DNA of 40,539 nucleotides from a virus, in the IMG/VR virus record IMGVR_UViG_3300031251_000054, positions 1 to 40,539 of that record. One strand, written 5' to 3'. Positions within the stretch are counted from its first letter, which is position 1. Each line of letters starts with the position of its first letter. Shown here in pieces: positions 5,170-26,069 of this stretch. The position numbers and the translations under genes were made by a program. The notes beneath the pieces were generated by a model. That model did no database searches. It was not told the origin of the DNA and was given only the letters and a program-made list of their open reading frames with translations.

Positions 5170-5958
5170 ATGCCAACGAAACAGAAACCGGTAACCAGCA
5201 ACTCGATGACGAAGTGGGACCAGAAGCTCGCGGACCTCGCGAAGCAACGCTCCCAGACGGTCGCCGACATCGGCGGCGGGCAGTTCATTTCCATCAAGAG
5301 CGGCGTCATGACGTGGAACGGCGCGGAGATTCCCGGCAACAAGCTCAACGCCGTGATCCTCTGCGACGTAAAGGAAAACGACTACTACGAGGAAGGCTTC
5401 GACCCCGACAATATCGCGGTCCCGGGCTGCTTCGCGTTCGGTCAGTCGATGGCCGAGATGCGGCCGCACGAGGTGGCGACCGATCCCCAGGGCGGGCCGG
5501 GCGGCGGCTGCCAGGGCTGCCCGCAAAATGAGTTCGGTACCAGCGAACGCGGCAAGGGCAAGGCGTGCCAGAACCGCATCCGCATGGGTCTGATCACCGA
5601 GGGCGATCTGAAGAAGGACATCAGCGCGGCCGAGGTTGGCTACCTGAAGATCCCACCGACGTCGCTTAAGGCCTACGCCGGCTACGTGCGCGACCTCGAG
5701 GGCACGTACCAGCGGCCGACGTTCGCCGTCGTCACCGAGGTGTCGGTGATTCCCGACGCGAAAACTCAGCTCAAGGTGCTGTTCAAGATGGTGCGCACGA
5801 TCGACGACGCCGAGGTCCTCGACGCCCTGCTCGCGAAGTCGGAGAAGGTCGCGAAGGAAATCGAGTTTCCGTACATCGCGCCGGCCGAAGGCGCAGAGAA
5901 GCCGGCGCCGGCGCGCCAGAAGCCGCTTAAGGGGCAGCGGCCGCAGGCCCGTCGATAA
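5170..5958 (+). CDS. Putative phage single-stranded DNA-binding protein (262 aa)
   Basis: After a basic, helical N-terminus the core starts GGGQFISIKSGVMTWNG, with the pattern of a widespread phage protein encoded beside DNA polymerases. It contains a CxxC pair (CQGCPQNEFG, residues 117-126) and a further Cys in KACQNR, probably one structural zinc site. The last 40 residues are Pro/Ala/Lys/Arg-rich and disordered. The single-strand-binding role is inference from gene position and from similarity in layout to zinc-containing SSB proteins such as T4 gp32; an acidic C-terminal tail, usual for SSBs, is absent. The ribosome site AAGGAGAACGCA is strong. Confidence 0.55.
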   Translation: MPTKQKPVTSNSMTKWDQKLADLAKQRSQTVADIGGGQFISIKSGVMTWNGAEIPGNKLNAVILCDVKENDYYEEGFDPDNIAVPGCFAFGQSMAEMRPHEVATDPQGGPGGGCQGCPQNEFGTSERGKGKACQNRIRMGLITEGDLKKDISAAEVGYLKIPPTSLKAYAGYVRDLEGTYQRPTFAVVTEVSVIPDAKTQLKVLFKMVRTIDDAEVLDALLAKSEKVAKEIEFPYIAPAEGAEKPAPARQKPLKGQRPQARR

Positions 5959-8893: not shown

Positions 8894-9432
8894 CGGCTGA
8901 CTACGCGCTCGGCAAGCTGCCGCTGAAACCTTGCCCCGAGGAGCTCGACTCGTTCTTCGAGGAGTTCACGCTGATTCGCAAGGAAAAGGTGGTGGCGCAG
9001 GCGGAGTGGGCGTTCACCGCAGAGTTCGTTCAGTGCGATTGGAAGGACTGGGACCGCGCCTGGGTCCGCATCAAGACCGACCTCCACCACCTGACCGGCA
9101 AGGGCAAGGCGTGCGTCGTCGTCGACATCAAGACGGGCAAGGTTTACCCCGAGCACGAGAAGCAGCTGTCGCTGTACGCGCTCGGCGCCTTCCTAGTGTA
9201 CCCCAACGTCGAGAGCGTTACGGTGGCCGACTGGTACCTCGACCAGGGCACGATCGGCGGGCCGAAGGTGTGGACGCGGGCGCAGCTCGACGACCTGAAG
9301 CGGGAGTGGATCGGCGCGACCAAGGAGCTGCTGTCGGACACCGCGTTCGCCATGATGCCGGGGCCGCACTGCCGCTATTGCTTTTTCCGGAAGGACAACA
9401 AGGCCGCGGGGGGTGGGCAATGCAAATTCTAG
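8737..9432 (+). CDS. Cas4/RecB-like PD-(D/E)XK nuclease (231 aa)
   Basis: The exonuclease core is visible: Glu90, Asp115 in RIKTDLHHL, the Asp130-x-Lys132 pair in VVVDIKTGK, and the Gln143...Tyr147 helix QLSLYALG. One N-terminal Cys (23) and three C-terminal Cys (212, 215, 229) match the iron-sulfur cluster spacing of Cas4 and AddB-type nucleases. Phage members are thought to process DNA ends for recombination or replication. AAAGGAGAACG precedes the ATG. The stop overlaps the next small gene. Confidence 0.85.
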   Translation: MPTLRKKKITAWSYSRYNDYVKCHFMAFCKHVLRIKEPSNPAMDRGGRIDQLAADYALGKLPLKPCPEELDSFFEEFTLIRKEKVVAQAEWAFTAEFVQCDWKDWDRAWVRIKTDLHHLTGKGKACVVVDIKTGKVYPEHEKQLSLYALGAFLVYPNVESVTVADWYLDQGTIGGPKVWTRAQLDDLKREWIGATKELLSDTAFAMMPGPHCRYCFFRKDNKAAGGGQCKF

Positions 9433-19421: not shown

Positions 19422-19482
19422 CGCAGAGGACGACCGCGGCGCAGATCGCGGCGTAATGCGCGGGACGGTTCCAAGCCCGTCC
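19422..19482 (+). repeat. Two-hairpin leader element, copy 1
   Basis: CGCAGAGGACG, inner stem CCGCG/CGCGG with one bulged A, CGTAATGCG, then GGACGG-TTCCAAGC-CCGTCC. It is followed by AAAAAGGAGAG and the ATG at 19502. It is the first copy after the candidate leader RNA. The second hairpin is identical to that of copy 2. Confidence 0.9.
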
Positions 19483-19501
19483 GACTAAAAAGGAGAGAAT
19501 T

Positions 19502-19780
19502 ATGAGCATGCGCTTGCATGAAATGATTACCAAGCAGGTAAAGTCCGACCCACAAAAATTCGATTTCCTCAACGGAATGCTGGACCGCGTTAAGCGCGTC
19601 GACGAACTTCACCCTTCCAAGGACAACGACAGCTACTACGTGTTCAACGTTTGGGTCGACGAGGACGACGACTCGCTCGTTACCAAGACGATCAAAGAAA
19701 ATGTCAGCCGCGATGAAGAATGGTCCTTCGAGGTTCACTCGACGGGCTCAGGTCTGATCGTGGTGTTCTGCTGGATATAA
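19502..19780 (+). CDS. Hypothetical acidic protein (92 aa)
   Basis: Unknown protein with a helical first half and a strand-rich second half (YYVFNVWVDEDDDSL, WSFEV, GLIVVFCWI). The ribosome site AAAAAGGAGAG lies between leader element copy 1 and the ATG, so translation may depend on that element's fold. The next gene follows after one base. Confidence 0.6.
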   Translation: MSMRLHEMITKQVKSDPQKFDFLNGMLDRVKRVDELHPSKDNDSYYVFNVWVDEDDDSLVTKTIKENVSRDEEWSFEVHSTGSGLIVVFCWI

Positions 19781-19781
19781 G

Positions 19782-20159
19782 ATGGCGACCTACGTTGACA
19801 ACGCTAAGACGCACTACGGCCGAATGATTATGTGCCACGTGATCGCGGATACAACGGATGAACTTCTTCAAATGATAAATAAGATCGGAGTTGATCCACG
19901 TTGGATTCAATACGCCGGTACGTACAAGGAGCATTTTGACGTTTGTCAGAAAAAGAAGTTGCTCGCAGTTCAAGCCGGCGCGATTGAAATTACTTCGAGG
20001 CAACTCGTTAAACTTCTAAACGAACGCAGAGGACGCTGCGCGAGCGGCGTAATGCGCGGGACGGTTCCAAGCCCGTCCACTAAAAAAGGAGAGAATAATG
20101 AAAACGTACAGGTACATCGTTTATCAAAACAACAGGCAGCGCGTCGGTCCAAAGAATAG
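19782..20159 (+). CDS. DUF4031 protein reading through leader element copy 2 (125 aa as read)
   Basis: Residues 1-80 match the DUF4031 pattern: MATYVDNAKTHYGRMIMCH, then ADTTDELLQMINKIGV, RWIQ and AVQAGAIEITSRQLVKLL. The function of the family is unknown to me. Unlike other genes here, no stop precedes the leader element: the frame runs through copy 2 and 62 bases into the next gene. A stop (TTC TAA) exists one frame away just before the element, so a frameshift or insertion of the element probably removed the normal end. The last 45 residues are likely not native. Confidence 0.6.
   Translation: MATYVDNAKTHYGRMIMCHVIADTTDELLQMINKIGVDPRWIQYAGTYKEHFDVCQKKKLLAVQAGAIEITSRQLVKLLNERRGRCASGVMRGTVPSPSTKKGENNENVQVHRLSKQQAARRSKE
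20025..20078 (+). repeat. Two-hairpin leader element, copy 2
   Basis: CGCAGAGG, stem ACGCTGC/GCGGCGT around a GCGA loop (one G-T pair), AATGCG, then GGACGG-TTCCAAGC-CCGTCC. It lies inside the extended DUF4031 frame and 20 bases before the ATG at 20098. Confidence 0.9.
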
Positions 20160-20337
20160 GATCGACCCCGCGTGCCCGACGATGGGAGAAGTTCGCGACG
20201 ATTACGAGGAGCTCGGGTTCATCGACGCGCTCGACGTCATCGACGCGAAGAAAAAAGCGCGCCAGCAGTTCAACAAGAAGGTCGAGGTCAAGCTGGTCGG
20301 CGCCGGAACGTTCGGCCGCACGACGCTGTTGCCATAA
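20098..20337 (+). CDS. Hypothetical protein (79 aa)
   Basis: Small basic protein starting MKTYRYIVYQNNRQRVGPKN, with a strand-helix-strand look (IDALDVIDAKKKARQQFNKK, VEVKLVGAG). Not recognised. The ATG follows AAAAAAGGAGAGAATA directly after element copy 2, and the stop TAA directly abuts element copy 3. Confidence 0.6.
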   Translation: MKTYRYIVYQNNRQRVGPKNRIDPACPTMGEVRDDYEELGFIDALDVIDAKKKARQQFNKKVEVKLVGAGTFGRTTLLP

Positions 20338-20392
20338 CGCAGAGGACGCCGCGCGGAGCGGCGTAATGCGGCACGACGGTTCCAAGCCCGTC
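20338..20392 (+). repeat. Two-hairpin leader element, copy 3
   Basis: The element begins at the base after the upstream TAA. The inner stem CGCCGC/GCGGCG is perfect, and the second hairpin is GACGG-TTCCAAGC-CCGTC. It is followed by ACCGCGTTGGAGAG and the ATG at 20420. Confidence 0.9.
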
Positions 20393-20419
20393 GAAACTCA
20401 AACCGCGTTGGAGAGACTT

Positions 20420-20905
20420 ATGAAACACGACAGCTTCGACAAGATCTTCACGTCCCGTTCCGCTGGTATGGTTATGGCACGCGCCGCCGACATGTTGACC
20501 CGCGCGGCGCAGTACCTCGACGAGCAGGAAAATGAGTTCACGTACCACCTCACCGACGCGAAGTTCACGCTGATCGAAAAGCGCGGCGAGGTGGCGAGCG
20601 CGCTCCTCGCGCTGCACGCCGCCGAGGAGATCGTCAGCGACGCGACGACCGAGCGCGAAGCGAAGCTGAGAGCGATCGACGAGGTCTTCGCAACGCCTTC
20701 GCGCATCGTGAAGGCGTACAGCGGCAAGCGCGGCTGCATGTGCGGCTGCAAGGGCCGCTACTCGACGACGACCCGCATGCTGAACAACGTGTACGAGTCG
20801 CTTCGCGGCCATGTCGACGACGTCGACACGGGCGACGCCTGCGGCGGCGAGAAATACATGGCCGTTAACATCGACGACCGCACGTTCGCGGTCTACTACA
20901 ACTAA
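20420..20905 (+). CDS. Phage protein with Cys-rich CxCGC motif (161 aa)
   Basis: A helical N-terminal part (residues 15-95) precedes GKRGCMCGCKGRYSTTTRML near residues 102-121, a cysteine-rich motif that I recall from other phage proteins, and then a strand-rich end. The start is the ATG at 20420 after TTGGAGAGACTT; the open frame from 20366 lies inside element copy 3. Metal binding is likely, function unknown. Confidence 0.6.
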   Translation: MKHDSFDKIFTSRSAGMVMARAADMLTRAAQYLDEQENEFTYHLTDAKFTLIEKRGEVASALLALHAAEEIVSDATTEREAKLRAIDEVFATPSRIVKAYSGKRGCMCGCKGRYSTTTRMLNNVYESLRGHVDDVDTGDACGGEKYMAVNIDDRTFAVYYN

Positions 20906-20963
20906 CGCAGAGGACGGCGGGCAAAACCCGCCGTAATGCGGCGCGCAGGTTCCAAGTCCTGCG
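20906..20963 (+). repeat. Two-hairpin leader element, copy 4
   Basis: Abuts the upstream TAA. Inner stem CGGCGGG/CCCGCCG is perfect (7 bp, loop CAAAA). The second hairpin is CGCAGG-TTCCAAGT-CCTGCG. The ATG of the next gene is at 20993 after GAAGGAGAGAAAATT. Confidence 0.92.
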
Positions 20964-20992
20964 AACGTATAAATAACGAAGGAGAGAAAATT

Positions 20993-21478
20993 ATGGCAAA
21001 GGCAAAAGCGGTATTTTCGAGCGATGCGAAGGTCGAACGCGTCCGCAGCATATTGTTGAAGACCTTCCCTACCAACAAGATCTTCATCGAGTATCCCCGC
21101 AACGTTAACGTCAAGGTCGTAAAGAACGGCATGACCTACAAACTTTGGTTCGGCGACGCCAACGAGCTGATCGGCTGCGACGTGAATGTGGTCACCGGCG
21201 ACGGCCCCACCGGCGAGAACCTCGACACGACGTGCCCCATCGACTGCGGCGATCCCGCGGTCGTCGCCGACGCGATCATCGACGCAGTCCGCCGCTTTGA
21301 GAGCGACACGCCGATTCAGACCTTCGCCGCCTGCTTTACTGCGGTCGAGCAGCAGCTGCTCGTCGGCCTCCTCCAGGTCGAGCGCGACGCGTCGTTAGAA
21401 AATGACCGCGACGCGGCGCACGTTACGCTGGTCGAGAACGTCGTCGCGAAGCTGGGCGGGACGCTGGAAAAATACTAA
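20993..21478 (+). CDS. Hypothetical protein (161 aa)
   Basis: Not recognised. The first half alternates strands (KIFIEYPRNVNVKVV, GMTYKLWFGDANELIGCDVNVV) and the second half is helical (VVADAIIDAVRRFES, VEQQLLVGLLQVERD). The ATG at 20993 has AAGGAGAG upstream, after element copy 4. The product has the same length as that of the previous element-led gene but no visible similarity to it. Confidence 0.6.
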   Translation: MAKAKAVFSSDAKVERVRSILLKTFPTNKIFIEYPRNVNVKVVKNGMTYKLWFGDANELIGCDVNVVTGDGPTGENLDTTCPIDCGDPAVVADAIIDAVRRFESDTPIQTFAACFTAVEQQLLVGLLQVERDASLENDRDAAHVTLVENVVAKLGGTLEKY

Positions 21479-21481
21479 CCT

Positions 21482-21581
21482 CGCAGAGGACGAGGGCGCG
21501 GCGCGGTCGATCGGGTCGATGAAGCGAACCCGACCAGACCGCGCGCCCTCGTAATGCGGCGGCCCGGTTCCAAGCCCGAGC
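21482..21581 (+). repeat. Two-hairpin leader element, copy 5 (extended first hairpin)
   Basis: The core is as in other copies, but the first hairpin is about 60 bases long: a perfect 10-bp stem 21491-21500/21542-21551, then CGGTC/GACCG and TCGGGT/ACCCGA in series. The second hairpin (GCCCGG-TTCCAAGC-CCGAGC) has one mismatch. The ATG follows at 21611. Confidence 0.92.
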
Positions 21582-21610
21582 GGACGTATAGATAAAGATA
21601 AGGAGCGATT

Positions 21611-21841
21611 ATGACGAAGGCTGAGGTTAAGCGCGCCCTGAAGCACCTTCAGGCCGCCGTAAAGATCGTCGAGGAAAGTGCGGTCATGACCGTCGCGCTT
21701 ACCACGACCGCGCTGCCCGTCGAAGGGCTGGACGAAGCGACGGATAAGCTTGAGCGGATGTTGAAGCGCGAAGCGTGCCCGTCCTGCAAGCAAATTCTAC
21801 GTTCGTGGCACGACCATAAGAACAACTGCAAGGAGGCCTAA
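21611..21841 (+). CDS. Small protein with C-terminal zinc-finger-like motif (76 aa)
   Basis: A helical N-terminus is followed by CPSCKQILRSWHDHKNNC (about 56-73), a C2-H2-C arrangement suited to zinc. TAAGGAGCGATT precedes the ATG. It heads a three-gene run (21611, 21844, 22047) behind element copy 5. Function unknown. Confidence 0.55.
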   Translation: MTKAEVKRALKHLQAAVKIVEESAVMTVALTTTALPVEGLDEATDKLERMLKREACPSCKQILRSWHDHKNNCKEA

Positions 21842-21843
21842 CC

Positions 21844-22035
21844 ATGGCGCAGTTCACCATCACCGTGCCCGACGACGAGGCCCTCGACCTGAGCGACACG
21901 GCCGAGGAAATTCTTAAGGCGATCAACGACCGCTGCGAGTTCAGCAGCATCGGCGTGCAGGTGCACCGCGCGCTGCCGCCGTCGATCTCGTTCCACACCC
22001 AGAACGGCAAACCGCTGATGATCGTCAGTAAATAA
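21844..22035 (+). CDS. Hypothetical protein (63 aa)
   Basis: Short, acidic, strand-helix-strand pattern (AQFTITVPDDEALDL, TAEEILKAINDRC, PSISFHT). It starts two bases after the previous stop with AAGGAGG inside the previous gene. Not recognised. Confidence 0.5.
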   Translation: MAQFTITVPDDEALDLSDTAEEILKAINDRCEFSSIGVQVHRALPPSISFHTQNGKPLMIVSK

Positions 22036-22046
22036 AAAGGAGAGTT

Positions 22047-22253
22047 ATGGCCCTGAGCGAAGAAGGTCTGCGCGCGATTCAAAAGGCCAACCGCGAACGC
22101 GGCCGCAAGTGCGGCAGCTGCGGCGCCCTGGGGTTAGAAGAACGGGACGGCGCGGAGGTCGGTGGCCTTCCCGGTTTGAGGTACAAGGTTTGCAACGGCT
22201 GCGGCTGGTCGCGGGCAATCACCGTGCGGCCGAAGCGAGAAAAGCTGAGGTAA
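22047..22253 (+). CDS. Zinc-ribbon small protein (68 aa)
   Basis: Two CxxC knuckles, CGSCGALG (about 22-29) and CNGCGW (about 49-54), form a ribbon, with basic ends suited to nucleic-acid contact. AAAAGGAGAGTT precedes the ATG. Its TAA abuts element copy 6. No specific family. Confidence 0.55.
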   Translation: MALSEEGLRAIQKANRERGRKCGSCGALGLEERDGAEVGGLPGLRYKVCNGCGWSRAITVRPKREKLR

Positions 22254-22310
22254 CGCAGAGGACGGCGCGACGTCGCGCCGTAATGCGGCGGATCGGTTCC
22301 AAGCCCGGTC
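22254..22310 (+). repeat. Two-hairpin leader element, copy 6
   Basis: Abuts the upstream TAA. The inner stem is CGGCGCGA/TCGCGCCG and the second hairpin GATCGG-TTCCAAGC-CCGGTC (one G-T pair). AAAAGGAGAGACG and the ATG at 22333 follow. Confidence 0.9.
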
Positions 22311-22332
22311 GCATTCAAAAGGAGAGACGTTT

Positions 22333-23040
22333 ATGAAATGCACGAATTGCAAGACGAAGTTGGACGACCGCTTCGGCAAGTCGCTCGGCTGCGAGCGCTG
22401 CGCCGGCGAGTTCTGCAGCAGCGCCTGCGTCGACGCGCATCCCTGCCCGGCGAAGTACAAGAACTGGCAGCTCGAGTTTGGCGTAGGCTACGGCGTCCCC
22501 GCCGAGGTCGACGCGCTGGTGACCGACGGCCTGGCCGACGACACCTCGTGGCACAACGATACCTGCGCGTCGTTCGCGTACGCGCTCGCCGACCCCGAAA
22601 CGCGGAGAGTTACCCTGTACGTCGAGCACGTCGACGTCGACGAGCGGGAGTTCCCCGACAACAAGCGCTTCGCCATCAGCGTCTGTAATAACAACGACGA
22701 GTGGACCTACACCTGCGAGACCGACGACGTCGCCGAGGCGCTCGCCGCCTTCCACGCCGAGCGGACCAAGCTGGTCGACGAGCTTCGCCTGACCGCGATC
22801 ACGCTGGCGATCGACGAGGCCATCGCTACCCTGCAGCGCCTTGGCCGCGCGAAGCTTGAGGCGATCCACGCGACGCCCGAGGAGCTCCAGGGGGCGGGCA
22901 AGGAAACCTACATGATGTTCAAGGAGGACTTCGACAGCGACATGATCGTCGACTGGGACGTCGAGGTTGCGGATTCCATCCTAACGATGCGCGAGCTTGA
23001 AGAAAGCGAGGAAGCCGGTGGCGAAGCCCAAGCGGTGTGA
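22333..23040 (+). CDS. Protein with N-terminal double zinc finger (235 aa)
   Basis: The first 40 residues carry CTNCK, CERC, CSSACVDAHPC, a pattern like MYND/HIT-type fingers (seven Cys and a His). The rest is acidic and mixed, with a helical stretch near 145-175. Function unknown; a protein- or RNA-binding finger with an effector part is a fair guess. It is led by element copy 6 and overlaps the next gene by 23 bases. Confidence 0.6.
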   Translation: MKCTNCKTKLDDRFGKSLGCERCAGEFCSSACVDAHPCPAKYKNWQLEFGVGYGVPAEVDALVTDGLADDTSWHNDTCASFAYALADPETRRVTLYVEHVDVDEREFPDNKRFAISVCNNNDEWTYTCETDDVAEALAAFHAERTKLVDELRLTAITLAIDEAIATLQRLGRAKLEAIHATPEELQGAGKETYMMFKEDFDSDMIVDWDVEVADSILTMRELEESEEAGGEAQAV

Positions 23041-23179
23041 CCTTTGCTCCCACGCGGCCGAACCCGGCCGCAAGCTGTGCGACGCCTGCGCCAACGCGAT
23101 GCAGCGGCTCATGCTGCTTCGCGAGCTGGACCGAATCTCAACTCAGTCACAGCGGCGCTCGCGCGCCGCGCGCTACTGA
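23018..23179 (+). CDS. Small zinc-ribbon protein (53 aa)
   Basis: CDLC (7-10) and CDAC (22-25) form a ribbon, followed by a basic helix (RLMLLRELDRIS) and an Arg/Ser-rich end. I choose the GTG at 23018 after GCGAGGAAGCC; a TTG at 22997 is in frame but has no ribosome site. The stop lies just before element copy 7. Confidence 0.5.
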   Translation: MAKPKRCDLCSHAAEPGRKLCDACANAMQRLMLLRELDRISTQSQRRSRAARY

Positions 23180-23180
23180 A

Positions 23181-23237
23181 CGCAGAGGACGGCGCGACGG
23201 CGCGCCGTAATGCGGCGGCTCGGTTCCAAGTCCGAGC
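23181..23237 (+). repeat. Two-hairpin leader element, copy 7
   Basis: Starts one base after the upstream TGA. The inner stem is CGGCGCG/CGCGCCG and the second hairpin GCTCGG-TTCCAAGT-CCGAGC is perfect. It shares the downstream ACCGCGTTGGAGAG with copy 3. The ATG of the helicase is at 23263. Confidence 0.92.
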
Positions 23238-23262
23238 GAATCCTACCGCGTTGGAGAGAATC

Positions 23263-24780
23263 ATGGAACGTACGTGGAGCGAGCATCAGAACCGAATCTT
23301 TACGTTCATCGGCGACGGCCGCGGCAACGCCTCGATCGAGGCGGTCGCGGGGTCCGGCAAGACGACGACCATCGTCGAGGCCGCGAACCGCCTGCCGGCG
23401 GGCACGCGCAACCTGTTCTTAGCGTTCAATAAGTCGATCGCCGAGGAGCTCGCGTCGCGCCTGCCGTCGCACGTCACGTCGAAAACCTTGAACAGCCTGG
23501 GCCACGGCGCCTGGGCCGCTAAGCTGCGGCCGATGCGCCTCACGCTTGACGCCAACAAAACGCGCGCCATCATGGACAAGCGCCTCGTCGAGGCCGACCG
23601 CAAGCTGTACGGTTCGCTGGTCACGCGCCTCGTGGCGCTGGCGAAGTCCGCCGGGCTCGCGCCCGCCGGCGCGCCGAACGCCTACCCGCTGGTGGACGAC
23701 TCCCTGGACACGTGGCTGGACATGATCGACTACCACGACCTCGAGGTTCCCGAGGACGGAAACGTTAACCGCGCGATTGACCTGGCGCGCAAGGTGCTCA
23801 GCGAGTCGATCCGGCAGGCATTCGCCGGCTACGTCGACTTCGACGACCAGATCTACATGACGGTGGTCTACCGCGCCCCGATGTCGAAATTCGACTTCGT
23901 GTTCGTCGACGAGGCGCAGGACCTTAACTGCATCCAGCACCAGCTGATCGCGATGGCGATCAGGCCGGGCGCCGGCCGCCTCGTCGCCGTGGGAGACCCG
24001 CGGCAGGCGATCTACGGCTTTCGCGGCGCCGACGCGTCGAGCATGGAAAACCTGCAGAAGCGCTTCCGCACCACGACGCTGCCGCTCTCGATTTCGTACC
24101 GCTGCCCGCAGGCCGTGGTCGCTGAGGCGCAGAAGATAGTCTCGCACATCCAATCCCACGAATCGGCGCCGATGGGCCTCGTCGAGACCGTCGACAAATA
24201 CGACGCGTCGTTGTTCGACGATCGCGACGTGATCGTGTGCCGCAACGCTAAGCCGCTCGTCGCGCTGGCCTTCCAGCTGATCCGCGGCGGGCGCGGCTGC
24301 CGCGTGCTCGGGCGCGACATCGGCCAGGGCCTGCAGTCGCTAATAAAGAAGATGAACGCGGCCGACGTGGACGCGCTCGAAACCAAGCTCGACGCCTACC
24401 TCGATCGCGAGACGCGCCGGCTGCTCGCGAAGAACCAGGACGCGAAGGTCGCCGCCCTCGAGGACAAGGTCGACACCGTCCGGCTGTTCATCGACCAGCT
24501 TAACGAGGGCGAGCGGACGATTGAAGCGCTGTTCGCCAAGATCGACGCCCTGTTCACCGACAACGGAGCGGGCAAGCTGACGCTCTGCACCATCCACAAG
24601 TCGAAGGGCCTCGAGTGGGACCGCGTATTCATCCTCGACCGCGAGCTGATGCCCTCGAAGTACGCCCGGCAGGCGTGGCAGCTGGCGCAGGAGACGAACA
24701 TCCACTACGTGGCGATCACCCGCGCCCGCCGCGAGCTGCGCTACCTTGTGAGCGATAATTTTAAGAAGGGAGGAAAATAA
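23263..24780 (+). CDS. UvrD/PcrA-type superfamily 1 DNA helicase (505 aa)
   Basis: A 3'-5' SF1A helicase. Q-motif-like SEHQNRIF (6-13), Walker A AGSGKTT (29-35), motif II VDEAQD (215-220), motif III VGDPRQAIYGFRGAD (243-257), motif IV SYRCP, then TIHKSKGLEWDRVF and HYVAITRARREL at the end. It is shorter than host UvrD but complete in motifs. A role in phage replication, recombination or lesion processing is expected. The start at 23263 follows TTGGAGAGAATC behind element copy 7; the frame further upstream runs through that element. Confidence 0.93.
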   Translation: MERTWSEHQNRIFTFIGDGRGNASIEAVAGSGKTTTIVEAANRLPAGTRNLFLAFNKSIAEELASRLPSHVTSKTLNSLGHGAWAAKLRPMRLTLDANKTRAIMDKRLVEADRKLYGSLVTRLVALAKSAGLAPAGAPNAYPLVDDSLDTWLDMIDYHDLEVPEDGNVNRAIDLARKVLSESIRQAFAGYVDFDDQIYMTVVYRAPMSKFDFVFVDEAQDLNCIQHQLIAMAIRPGAGRLVAVGDPRQAIYGFRGADASSMENLQKRFRTTTLPLSISYRCPQAVVAEAQKIVSHIQSHESAPMGLVETVDKYDASLFDDRDVIVCRNAKPLVALAFQLIRGGRGCRVLGRDIGQGLQSLIKKMNAADVDALETKLDAYLDRETRRLLAKNQDAKVAALEDKVDTVRLFIDQLNEGERTIEALFAKIDALFTDNGAGKLTLCTIHKSKGLEWDRVFILDRELMPSKYARQAWQLAQETNIHYVAITRARRELRYLVSDNFKKGGK

Positions 24781-25056
24781 ATGTACGTCGACTTCTGGTT
24801 CGCCAACACCAACGACGACGAGAAGCAGATGACGCTGGAGTTCTTGCAGAACCACGACGCGCGCGACGTTACGGCCGCGCGCGGCGAGGAGTTCAACGAG
24901 TTCCGCGGCCGCCTGTACGTCGACGACGACATCGACGTCGTGAAGCTGCTCGACGTCGCCCTGTTTTACAACGACCACAGCGACGACCAGCGCAGGCTCA
25001 TCTGCGGGCGCGTCGCCAATCTGCTCCGAAAGTCAAAGCTAAAAGCGAGGAAATAA
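24781..25056 (+). CDS. Hypothetical acidic protein (91 aa)
   Basis: Acidic protein with two repeated-looking strand units (MYVDFWFANTND, GRLYVDDDIDVV) and a basic helical end. GGGAGGAAAATAA precedes the ATG, which touches the helicase stop. Not recognised. It overlaps the next gene by one base. Confidence 0.55.
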   Translation: MYVDFWFANTNDDEKQMTLEFLQNHDARDVTAARGEEFNEFRGRLYVDDDIDVVKLLDVALFYNDHSDDQRRLICGRVANLLRKSKLKARK

Positions 25057-25292
25057 TGCCAAAACCCACCTACGAGGAGCTGCAGAAGCAGCTCGCCGAA
25101 ACCCAAGCCAAGCTCGGGGCCGCCCGGGAGTTCAAGCTGAAGGTCAGCGAGAAGGGCGGGGTCAGCGCGTACGGCCTCGGCCGCTTCCCGGTGACCCTGT
25201 ACTACGAGCAGTGGACGATGCTGCTCGCGCACGCCGACGAGCTCGCCAAGTTCCTGGAGGAGAACAAGGCGAAGCTGAAGCTGAAAACGTAA
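25056..25292 (+). CDS. Small coiled-coil protein (78 aa)
   Basis: Residues 4-26 form a coiled coil (YEELQKQLAETQAKLGAARE), followed by a strand segment with KGGVSAYGLGRFPVTLYYEQW and a helical end. The G-RFPVTLY-QW-LL pattern resembles a small domain I recall from other phages, function unknown. GCGAGGAAATA before the ATG; the TAA abuts element copy 8. Confidence 0.6.
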   Translation: MPKPTYEELQKQLAETQAKLGAAREFKLKVSEKGGVSAYGLGRFPVTLYYEQWTMLLAHADELAKFLEENKAKLKLKT

Positions 25293-25352
25293 CGCAGAGG
25301 ACGGCGCAGAGGATCGCGCCGTAATGCGGCAGGCCGGGTTCCAAGCCCCGGC
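25293..25352 (+). repeat. Two-hairpin leader element, copy 8
   Basis: Abuts the upstream TAA. Inner stem CGGCGC/GCGCCG with an 8-base loop, second hairpin GCCGGG-TTCCAAGC-CCCGGC, perfect. GAAGGAGAGGTACG and an ATG at 25385 follow. Confidence 0.9.
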
Positions 25353-25384
25353 GCGCAGAGTAAAATTCACGAAGGAGAGGTACG

Positions 25385-25510
25385 ATGACCGACAAGGATA
25401 AGATCCTCGATAAGCTAGCGAAGATCAAGCCGGCAAGCGCGCGGCCGACGGCGTCAACCTCAAACCTAACGCGGTCCACGCGGGCCGCCCTAACCAGCAG
25501 CTCGAAAGCT
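25385..25510 (+). pseudogene. Frameshifted small gene behind element copy 8
   Basis: The first 16 residues from the ATG (MTDKDKILDKLAKIKP) look normal. After that the frame turns Ser/Thr/Arg-rich and would run into the next gene, whereas the -1 frame reads GKRAADGVNLKPNAVHAGRP, has protein-like composition and stops at 25508-25510 before the next ribosome site. No slippery heptamer is visible, so a one-base indel (mutation or sequence error) is the simplest explanation. The intact product would be about 41 residues. Confidence 0.45.
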
Positions 25511-25530
25511 AGAAGAAAGGGAGGTTGTAA

Positions 25531-25719
25531 ATGTACCAGCGAATTATCATGCAGGTGTGCGGCTGCAACCAATGGACCGCGCGCCGAGTCGTCGCGATCG
25601 TCGAGCAGGAGGCACCGAACGGTGACCTCAGCGCTTTGACCCGCAACGAGATAGAAGACCTCGCCCTCGTGGCATACCGGTTGGTTGAGTACGACTTCAA
25701 CATCGTAGGGGAGGCGTAA
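25531..25719 (+). CDS. Hypothetical protein (62 aa)
   Basis: Helical small protein with CGC near residue 10 and an acidic middle; the pattern WTARRVVAIVEQEAP followed by LTRNEIEDLALVAYRL suggests a compact three-helix fold. GGGAGGTTGTAA precedes the ATG. Not recognised. Confidence 0.5.
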   Translation: MYQRIIMQVCGCNQWTARRVVAIVEQEAPNGDLSALTRNEIEDLALVAYRLVEYDFNIVGEA

Positions 25720-25721
25720 CC

Positions 25722-26069
25722 ATGCCGGCAAACAAGGTACACAAGAAGGACGTTCGCGTCGGCGCCGTCTACGCGGTTAAGGTAAGCGGTTCGATCGTTC
25801 CGGTGCGGCTCGACGCGGAGGACAAAATTCGTATCAGCGTTCTAAAAGGCACGATACGCAACACGTGGCTCGGGACTAACCTCCGGACGAATCGTGAGAT
25901 ACGTATTCGCAGCGCGGCGAAGCTGCGGTATGAGCTCGTCAAATGCATGAAAAAAGACTGCAAGCGCTGGGTGCAGCTGACCGAAGCCGGGAGTAGAACG
26001 TGTCGAGAGTGCACGCGAAAAGAAGACCTAGCGCTTCTTGACTCGGTTACCCAGGAGCTAAAACCGTGA
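25722..26069 (+). CDS. Beta-barrel plus zinc-ribbon protein (115 aa)
   Basis: Residues 8-70 alternate strands (VRVGAVYAVKVSGSIVPVRL, KLRYEL) like a small barrel. Residues 75-97 hold CMKKDC and CREC, a zinc ribbon. I infer a nucleic-acid-binding small protein without a known family. The stop overlaps the next GTG. Confidence 0.5.
   Translation: MPANKVHKKDVRVGAVYAVKVSGSIVPVRLDAEDKIRISVLKGTIRNTWLGTNLRTNREIRIRSAAKLRYELVKCMKKDCKRWVQLTEAGSRTCRECTRKEDLALLDSVTQELKP

Follow-up and report, generated by a model that had tools for sequence, protein, structure and literature searches.

Self-cleaving ribozymes have been described in prophages, where clusters of hammerheads flank single genes or short blocks of genes whose identities are not constant, and the part of the report on these hammerheads suggests that they process long phage transcripts (Perreault et al. 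2011, PMC3088659). Three tandem arrangements cut native fragments of about 2 kb in vitro, and a triple one cut in E. coli (PMC3088659, same part). Since phage hammerhead clusters were thereby proposed to segment transcripts in 2011, the idea of segmentation is not new. The theta ribozymes of gut phages are also self-cleaving and have been proposed to process phage transcripts; in the passages on them in PMC10879173, these HDV-like ribozymes lie beside tRNAs, with a suggested role in tRNA 3' trailers, and in this they differ from the locus described here, where the ribozymes stand between protein genes. In engineered E. coli systems, protein rose two- to tenfold and transcript about twofold with RiboJ, according to the RiboJ passages of PMC6206723. 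For twister ribozymes, passages in PMC5408937 and PMC10085705 term the role in bacteria and phages speculative or unknown.

The window analysed here is the whole 40,539-nt stretch of IMG/VR record IMGVR_UViG_3300031251_000054, from an uncultured bacterial virus. Using an Rfam covariance search, RF02684 (Twister-P5, clan CL00120) was found to match all eight copies of a repeated element at 40.7-54.4 bits, against a curated cut-off of 37.6, with E-values per copy of 9.5e-9 to 3.1e-5 (whole window, 4,227 Rfam families). The full model length is matched in every copy, with stems P1, P2 and P4 in the P5 permutation, and the scissile U-A, the L1/L4 core nucleotides and the standard pairs of pseudoknots T1 and T2 are kept in 8/8. 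By homology, the eight elements are Twister-P5 self-cleaving ribozymes, a known class, and a new RNA class is ruled out. An earlier note on this DNA had not recognised the element as a described class and had itself named an Rfam match as the outcome that would speak against this; that part of the note falls. As the nearest analogue, the note had suggested the start-associated sequences of cluster K mycobacteriophages. The motif itself does not differ from Twister-P5; what is unusual is the presence of eight copies in 6 kb, placed between a gene end and a ribosome site. The ribozymes (cleavage sites predicted by homology) and the gene segments are as follows.

19422..19482, plus strand: Twister-P5 ribozyme 1, RF02684 40.7 bits; predicted cleavage 19454/19455
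19502..20159, plus strand: segment 3' of ribozyme 1; g1 (no function assigned) and g2 (DUF4031; frame continues through ribozyme 2)
20025..20078, plus strand: Twister-P5 ribozyme 2, RF02684 42.5 bits; within the g2 open frame; predicted cleavage 20050/20051
20098..20337, plus strand: segment 3' of ribozyme 2; g3, no function assigned
20338..20393, plus strand: Twister-P5 ribozyme 3, RF02684 50.5 bits; abuts TAA; predicted cleavage 20364/20365
20420..20905, plus strand: segment 3' of ribozyme 3; g4, phrog_5930 match (7.7e-8), no function assigned
20906..20963, plus strand: Twister-P5 ribozyme 4, RF02684 54.4 bits; abuts TAA; predicted cleavage 20934/20935
20993..21478, plus strand: segment 3' of ribozyme 4; g5, no function assigned
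21482..21581, plus strand: Twister-P5 ribozyme 5, with a long P1 hairpin, RF02684 44.8 bits; TAA 3 nt before; predicted cleavage 21552/21553
21611..22253, plus strand: segment 3' of ribozyme 5; g6, g7 and g8, with gaps of 2 and 11 nt and no ribozyme between them
22254..22310, plus strand: Twister-P5 ribozyme 6, RF02684 53.7 bits; abuts TAA; predicted cleavage 22281/22282
22333..23179, plus strand: segment 3' of ribozyme 6; g9 and g10, overlapping (g10 with a weak zinc ribbon likeness, below the Pfam cut-off)
23181..23237, plus strand: Twister-P5 ribozyme 7, RF02684 54.4 bits; TGA 1 nt before; predicted cleavage 23208/23209
23263..25292, plus strand: segment 3' of ribozyme 7; g11 DNA helicase (phrog_1967), g12 and g13, with gaps of 0 and -1 nt
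25293..25352, plus strand: Twister-P5 ribozyme 8, RF02684 52.2 bits; abuts TAA; predicted cleavage 25322/25323
25385..26069, plus strand: region 3' of ribozyme 8; g14 (doubtful ORF), g15 and g16

All eight starts listed are those that the earlier note had given, and every copy follows its consensus, CGCA-GAGG-ACG-stem1-CGT-AA-TGC(G), a short linker, stem 2 and the loop TTCCAAG(C/T), apart from minor departures: a G that should follow TGC is missing from copies 1 and 2, an A bulges from stem 1 of copy 1, and stem 1 (P1) of copy 5 is very long. GAGG and TTCCAAG, read there as an internal loop and a fixed loop, pair with each other as pseudoknot T1, which that reading missed. The term leader element applies to one half of each copy: because the cut, by homology, lies inside the copy, the second half would become the downstream 5' leader, and the first half would form the 3' end of the upstream mRNA. 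The genes, which the note called early, may be so.

Sequence variation among phages strongly supports the claim of a structured RNA under selection. In an alignment of 37 copies (seven from the window, with copy 5 left out for its long P1, and 30 from ten other phage records), the stems differ and pairing is kept by compensatory change: 92.2% of cells are paired, compared with 68.9% after shuffling, and the covariation score of 0.572 (shuffled 0.170) was reached by 0/500 shuffles. Pairing amounts to 89.8% in P1, 92.9% in P2, 93.0% in P4, 99.1% in T1 and 86.5% in T2. The two pseudoknots covary (0.349 vs 0.150, 0/500 shuffles) though they are absent from the search model, and in 147 copies standard pairs make up 96.9% of T1 and 74.3% of T2. 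After exclusion of the 17 of 148 matches below 35 bits from the core, placement and Shine-Dalgarno openness counts, 131 copies remained. The core is conserved among them (A+2 in 131/131, A+1 in 129/131, U-1 in 122/131), and the three T1 pairs are standard in 128/129, 129/129 and 127/129 copies, with compensatory changes.

As the earlier note had observed on placement, a stop codon lies just before six window copies (3 to 8), directly abutting four of them and at most 3 bases away from the others. Ribozyme 1 is the head of the array, and no ORF stop was found just upstream of it. An ATG follows 19-32 nt after the last base of each ribozyme (20-33 in the note; our boundaries are those of the model), with GGAG starting 9-12 nt before each ATG. 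Where a ribozyme stands at a gene junction, the gap is 79-132 nt, g2/g3 excepted; at the other junctions it is at most 11 nt, or the genes overlap. The same arrangement was seen in a scan of 35 sources, a subset of the loci collected, from which L181 was omitted in the locus and placement counts as a near-copy of L179 (99.7%). In 17 array loci, an ORF stop lies at -6 to +2 of the first ribozyme base in 84/110 copies, compared with 4.1% of positions in the same spans. Among the 131 copies, a Shine-Dalgarno sequence plus start codon lies within 60 nt downstream in 109. The simple rule used to call stops required an ORF of 40 codons or more, and under it window copy 2 counts as stop-abutting only via a 42-codon ORF in another frame; the number of stop-abutting copies falls from 101/131 at this minimum to 90/131, 71/131 and 56/131 at minima of 60, 80 and 100 codons. 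In each locus, all twister matches are on one strand.

Arrays of this kind are present in other phages. At least three twister matches were found in 21 of 97 IMG/VR phage records, one of which has 15, but the 97 were chosen by two exact twister-like DNA patterns and the fraction is not a prevalence; moreover, the three matches of G111 are all below the Rfam cut-off, and G118 nearly repeats G087. When 12 array loci were compared with all of Rfam, the 72 matches obtained were all Twister-P5, which rules out other ribozyme classes mixed into these arrays. Twister was absent from 49 of the 50 helicase-related records tested (of 80 loci kept), so such phages can do without it. RF02684 had no match in five of five named phage records, a weak result since the controls gave none either, and blastn of two single ribozymes against 50,697 phage records returned only short chance-like matches, the best of which fell within a CDS annotated on the opposite strand of a Vibrio phage. 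A protein search for relatives of two other array phages returned only the queries and one record 100% identical in the query protein.

From these features, we consider segmentation of a polycistronic phage transcript to be the most likely job of the eight ribozymes, with a probability of about 0.7. As in the clustered prophage hammerheads (PMC3088659, hammerhead part), several co-oriented ribozymes flank single genes or gene blocks, and cleavage between the end of a block and the next ribosome-binding site would yield pieces of one to three genes. Here the ribozymes are of another class, and there are eight of them, with up to 15 elsewhere, compared with two or three per tested arrangement there; fusion to stop codons, seen here, is not mentioned in the hammerhead section of that report. 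Self-cleavage at the predicted U|A sites would divide the presumed polycistronic RNA. From the chemistry of the class, the P1 hairpin and a 2',3'-cyclic phosphate would close the short tail of the upstream mRNA. The downstream mRNA would start at a 5'-hydroxyl, and its leader (AAUGCG..., P4 hairpin) would be uniform and extend 47-62 nt to the ATG. These ends are expected to slow decay, and a block uncoupled from its neighbour should gain a stability and translation of its own, which would suit a region of exchanged gene blocks. In this the array would be a natural counterpart of the RiboJ insulator, which, in the passages on it in PMC6206723, also combines a self-cleaving ribozyme and a hairpin before the ribosome site to give a uniform 5' leader, but which is engineered, hammerhead-derived and used once per construct. 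The region is probably one transcript; internal promoter-like sites (2 vs 1.3 in shuffles) and terminator-like sites (10 vs 10.7) are no commoner than in shuffled sequence, and a single transcript is thus not proved.

A more far-reaching version of segmentation, which we regard as rather unlikely, is that stop codon, twister and ribosome site form a fused unit that delimits exchangeable cassettes in several phage lineages that have little DNA in common, each cassette bringing its own processing site. Any inserted gene block would then become an independent mRNA with protected ends. In the same tentative scheme, the terminating ribosome would cover P2 and L1, separate the cleaved halves and free the downstream mRNA; the stop would be fused to the ribozyme for this reason, coupling processing to upstream translation.

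The exchange of genes also bears on an improbable alternative, in which the ribozymes matter mainly as shared boundary DNA where gene cassettes are swapped by recombination from copy to copy, and RNA cleavage takes second place. An alignment of the window with its close relative G001 runs to the end of ribozyme 1 (19478) and resumes at the helicase (23283), and the genes between ribozymes are mostly different: tblastn of g1-g10 and g12-g14 gave no match in the available pieces of G001, where g11, g15 and g16 were found. With the low-complexity filter off, tblastx covered much of 19.5-23.2 kb against G001, which would argue against gene turnover there, but this was taken as an artefact: the coverage vanishes with the filter on, and 245 such matches arise in five loci of other array phages. 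Window ribozyme 6 aligns with a copy standing elsewhere in G001, G001 copies d and e are identical over their first 44 nt (d being without P4/L4), and homology between G080 and G139 begins within the last ribozyme, as the boundary-DNA view would have it. Against it, stem sequences diverge but the catalytic core persists, as does compensatory pairing, and mean copy identity is 0.565 within a locus compared with 0.502 between loci, which makes poor material for homologous recombination. The window and G001 also differ in stretches where no ribozymes stand. A point against segmentation is that copies can decay: in G001 one has lost P4/L4 and another has G at the cleavage site. Integron attC sites are likewise structured repeats that follow the stop codons of genes open to exchange, but they act as DNA with a tyrosine recombinase. 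An integron-like system is ruled out for the window, where no such integrase (PF00589) was found; among 26 array or twister-bearing records, one carries it.

Less probable again is translation control, with the uncleaved fold hiding or offering the ribosome site and cleavage serving as a switch regulated perhaps by a ligand or by upstream translation. A ribozyme that touches the upstream stop and ends some 20-30 nt short of the next start codon could be disturbed by ribosomes from either side. However, predicted Shine-Dalgarno openness in 107 copies, with cleavage sites placed by a pattern that was wrong for the copy at 20906 and possibly for others, changes on average only from 0.54 to 0.56 with cleavage, and changes above 0.2 go up in 16 copies and down in 13. 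Cleavage as an unmasking of the ribosome site is therefore rejected for want of a consistent effect, and cleavage is not a simple on-switch; nor was an additional conserved domain seen beside the twister core, although P1 is long in some copies. Finally, circular mRNAs, in which a block cut by two ribozymes (5'-OH and 2',3'-cyclic phosphate) is sealed by host RtcB ligase, are very improbable: the chemistry fits, most window gene blocks lie between two ribozymes and RtcB occurs in E. coli and in 8 of 13 further control genomes, but RtcB (PF01139) was found in 0/26 twister-bearing phage records, some of them fragments, compared with 9/14 controls, and circular or spliced products sought with phage hammerheads were not detected, according to the hammerhead part of PMC3088659.

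In conclusion, as far as sequence tells, this locus is a known ribozyme in a notable architecture. A literature search whose reach stopped short of the 2014 founding twister description found no published report of large twister arrays fused to stop codons. Such arrays, with 5 to 15 copies that mostly touch a stop and precede a ribosome site, predict short mRNAs with a 5'-OH at defined positions. They would give the ribozyme insulators of synthetic biology a natural counterpart and would show that a phage can process its messages without a ribonuclease.

In a comparison of the window with the whole of Rfam (4,227 families), RF02684 (Twister-P5) gave all eight above-threshold matches, at the eight repeat sites, and the same eight Twister-P5 matches were found in G000, the IMG/VR virus record from which the window comes, which is linear and equally long. 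When 19-27 kb was searched permissively, two further matches appeared, both to different families and far below their cut-offs. The window repeats are a known ribozyme class with a selected structure. The positions and form reported in the earlier note were confirmed, and its proposal of a structured RNA under selection is borne out by covariation, but the class is not an undescribed one without an existing Rfam family, as RF02684 matches every copy.

19422, + strand: start of ribozyme 1, predicted cut after 19454
20025, + strand: start of ribozyme 2, predicted cut after 20050
20338, + strand: start of ribozyme 3, predicted cut after 20364
20906, + strand: start of ribozyme 4, predicted cut after 20934
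21482, + strand: start of ribozyme 5, predicted cut after 21552
22254, + strand: start of ribozyme 6, predicted cut after 22281
23181, + strand: start of ribozyme 7, predicted cut after 23208
25293, + strand: start of ribozyme 8, predicted cut after 25322
19502-26069, + strand: genes g1-g16, around the ribozymes

Model alignments give the type-P5 permutation order: the P2 5' strand (CGCA), L1 (GAGG), hairpin P1, the cleavage site between U and AA and, 3' of it, the P2 3' strand (TGCG), L2 and hairpin P4 with loop L4. P1 and P4 correspond to the two stems first described, L1 plus the scissile junction to the 'GAGG/AA internal loop', and L4 to 'TTCCAAG'. L1 GGA pairs with L4 TCC in the three-pair pseudoknot T1, and L2 GC with L4 GC/GT in pseudoknot T2; T1 and T2 pairings of this kind belong to the twister as described in excerpts of PMC5408937. 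All eight window copies retain the scissile U-A, both pseudoknots and the core in L1 and L4. In copy 5 (21482-21581), P1 is a very long hairpin with a tail of -43.6 kcal/mol, and several copies at another locus, L182, span 85-93 nt.

The expected covariation was present in an enlarged alignment of 37 copies (seven from the window and 30 from ten other records), where 92.2% of cells were paired in the structure including both pseudoknots, compared with 68.9% after shuffling and 28-41% after sliding the partners, and 18/21 pairs had changes on both sides. T1 was 99.1% paired; one T1 pair is GC in 19 rows and AU in 17, and the others show single CG and UA. Among 147 distinct matched copies, found with a search model from which T1 and T2 were absent, T1 and T2 covariation was 0.349 versus 0.150 shuffled (0 of 500 shuffles reached it); the number of T1/T2 pairs with both sides changed says less, since 15 of 500 shuffles reached it. 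T2 was weaker in these copies (74.3% paired), probably in part through misaligned L2. A search of 35 sources with R1, the model made in this analysis, gave 148 matches, 131 of them at 35 bits or more, and in the latter A+2 was kept in 131/131, A+1 in 129/131 and U-1 in 122/131. Because the catalytic bases are kept while the stems diverge, the sequences argue for selection on cleavage rather than on hairpins alone. At L178, the locus of the window's close relative G001, the copy aligning with ribozyme 1 (5438-5499) has G for the U before the cleavage site.

Most of the ribozymes are fused to stop codons. Within each locus, every R1 match lies on one strand. An ORF stop (at least 40 codons) was located at -6 to +2 of the ribozyme's first base in 101/131 copies and at -1 to +2 in 73/131, and 56/131 still had a stop at the ribozyme with the minimum raised to 100 codons. 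Among the 110 copies at the 17 loci that carry at least three, the two ranges held stops in 84 and 66, versus 4.1% and 1.8% of same-span positions. A Shine-Dalgarno-led start followed within 60 nt in 109/131 and further off in 9/131 (median 26 nt over the 118 found), and none was found in 13/131, some at the end of available sequence; these stops and starts were assigned without a gene caller, and single assignments may be wrong. In 11/14 listed copies of phage record G144, the ribozyme's first one or two bases also belong to the stop, which is mostly TAG. Between ribozyme and Shine-Dalgarno, a second short repeat, GCG(A/G)(C/G)GCGGCGC..GTACCGC, occurs at three L178 junctions (5516, 5898 and 7528), and CCGCGTTGGAGAG is common to window copies 3 and 7 at the corresponding place.

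In the window, gaps at ribozyme-bearing junctions are 79-132 nt, except for ribozyme 2, within the g2 open frame, and junctions without a ribozyme have a gap of at most 11 nt or an overlap. The products include DUF4031 (g2) and a DNA helicase (g11), and the remaining ones are uncharacterised or give weak matches. Since, among the proteins tested elsewhere in the window, replication genes (+ strand) and tail genes including a sheath (- strand) were found, the virus most probably belongs to the phages with contractile tails. The DUF4031 gene (19782-20159) has no in-frame stop ahead of ribozyme 2 (20025-20078); its Pfam domain ends at residue 80, approximately where the ribozyme starts, the frame continues through it, and predicted cleavage would yield a message without a stop codon.

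The best-supported reading is that the ribozymes cut a polycistronic transcript into segments whose ends are defined hairpins. Self-cleavage would split the phage RNA so that each piece is bounded by hairpins; median folding energies were -15.0 kcal/mol for P1-side tails and -9.2 kcal/mol for P4-side leaders (107 copies, at least one site misplaced). The window cuts would yield g1-g2, g3, g4, g5, g6-g8, g9-g10, g11-g13 and g14 onward, with 47-62 nt of leader remaining on the downstream RNA. The likelier gain would lie in stability or, in the manner of RiboJ (excerpts of PMC6206723), in the uncoupling of neighbouring genes, and from the stop-codon fusion we infer that a terminating ribosome might pull the cleaved halves apart. 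The tight packing on both sides of the ribozyme may be mere genome economy. A simple switch is disfavoured, because predicted folding of the 107 copies (at least one with its cleavage site misplaced) shows no average gain in ribosome-site accessibility on cleavage, and circular mRNAs from the array would need a host ligase.

Arrays, that is, loci with several twister copies, recur in other phages. Two IMG/VR pattern scans gave 97 phage records, each searched whole with RF02684: 60/97 had one or more matches with an E-value of 0.001 or lower, 21/97 three or more, 16/97 five or more, and G144 had 15, counts that include matches under the Rfam cut-off and, the records being selected by pattern, are not prevalences. 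Of 50 helicase-related records, G001 only had twisters. In genomes of 84,980 species, three matched a similar pattern, and two of these held an Rfam twister (150 first-look candidates scored per genome). All-against-all blastn of 23 array loci gave matches longer than 200 nt only for window-L178, L179-L181 and L183-L215. Among 26 twister-bearing records, the only tyrosine recombinase is at G088:C1:39652-40290, and this phage may be temperate.

Genes between ribozymes turn over. Of the 40.5 kb of the window, about 25 kb align with G001, in the same order and mostly at 65-83% DNA identity. The alignment ends at 19478 inside ribozyme 1 and restarts at 23283, inside the helicase gene; between these points lies one ribozyme-sized match and nothing else. 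Beyond the helicase follow a ribozyme-sized match at ribozyme 8 and then g15. By tblastn of g1-g16 against the available G001 pieces, g11, g15 and g16 matched and no others. Across ribozymes 1-7, the window has ten genes versus room for one 88-codon ORF in G001, which carries extra sequence with two more ORFs after its third ribozyme. Other window stretches without ribozymes are likewise unaligned, and turnover therefore extends beyond the array. Records G080 and G139 share conserved sequence starting within the last ribozyme, as well as a 75-nt match that begins about 30 nt past another ribozyme pair. The L178 copies at 8948-9008 and 9188-9249 have identical first 44 nt; with its P4 and L4 missing, the first of the two looks like a recent duplicate, already broken.

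Excerpts of Perreault et al. 2011 (PMC3088659) propose a transcript-processing role for clustered prophage hammerheads and report tandem arrangements cleaved in vitro and a triple one in E. coli; the genes flanked by hammerheads are not constant there, with which the turnover at twister arrays agrees. Excerpts of PMC10085705 note clustering of hammerheads and twisters with one another and close to genes of Mu-like phages, and describe the reasons as unknown. Large stop-codon-fused twister arrays were not reported in the open-access titles and abstracts covered, a set to which the founding twister paper does not belong, so such arrays may already be in print. The architecture of the arrays makes a strong and testable case, seen repeatedly, as to the purpose of phage ribozymes.
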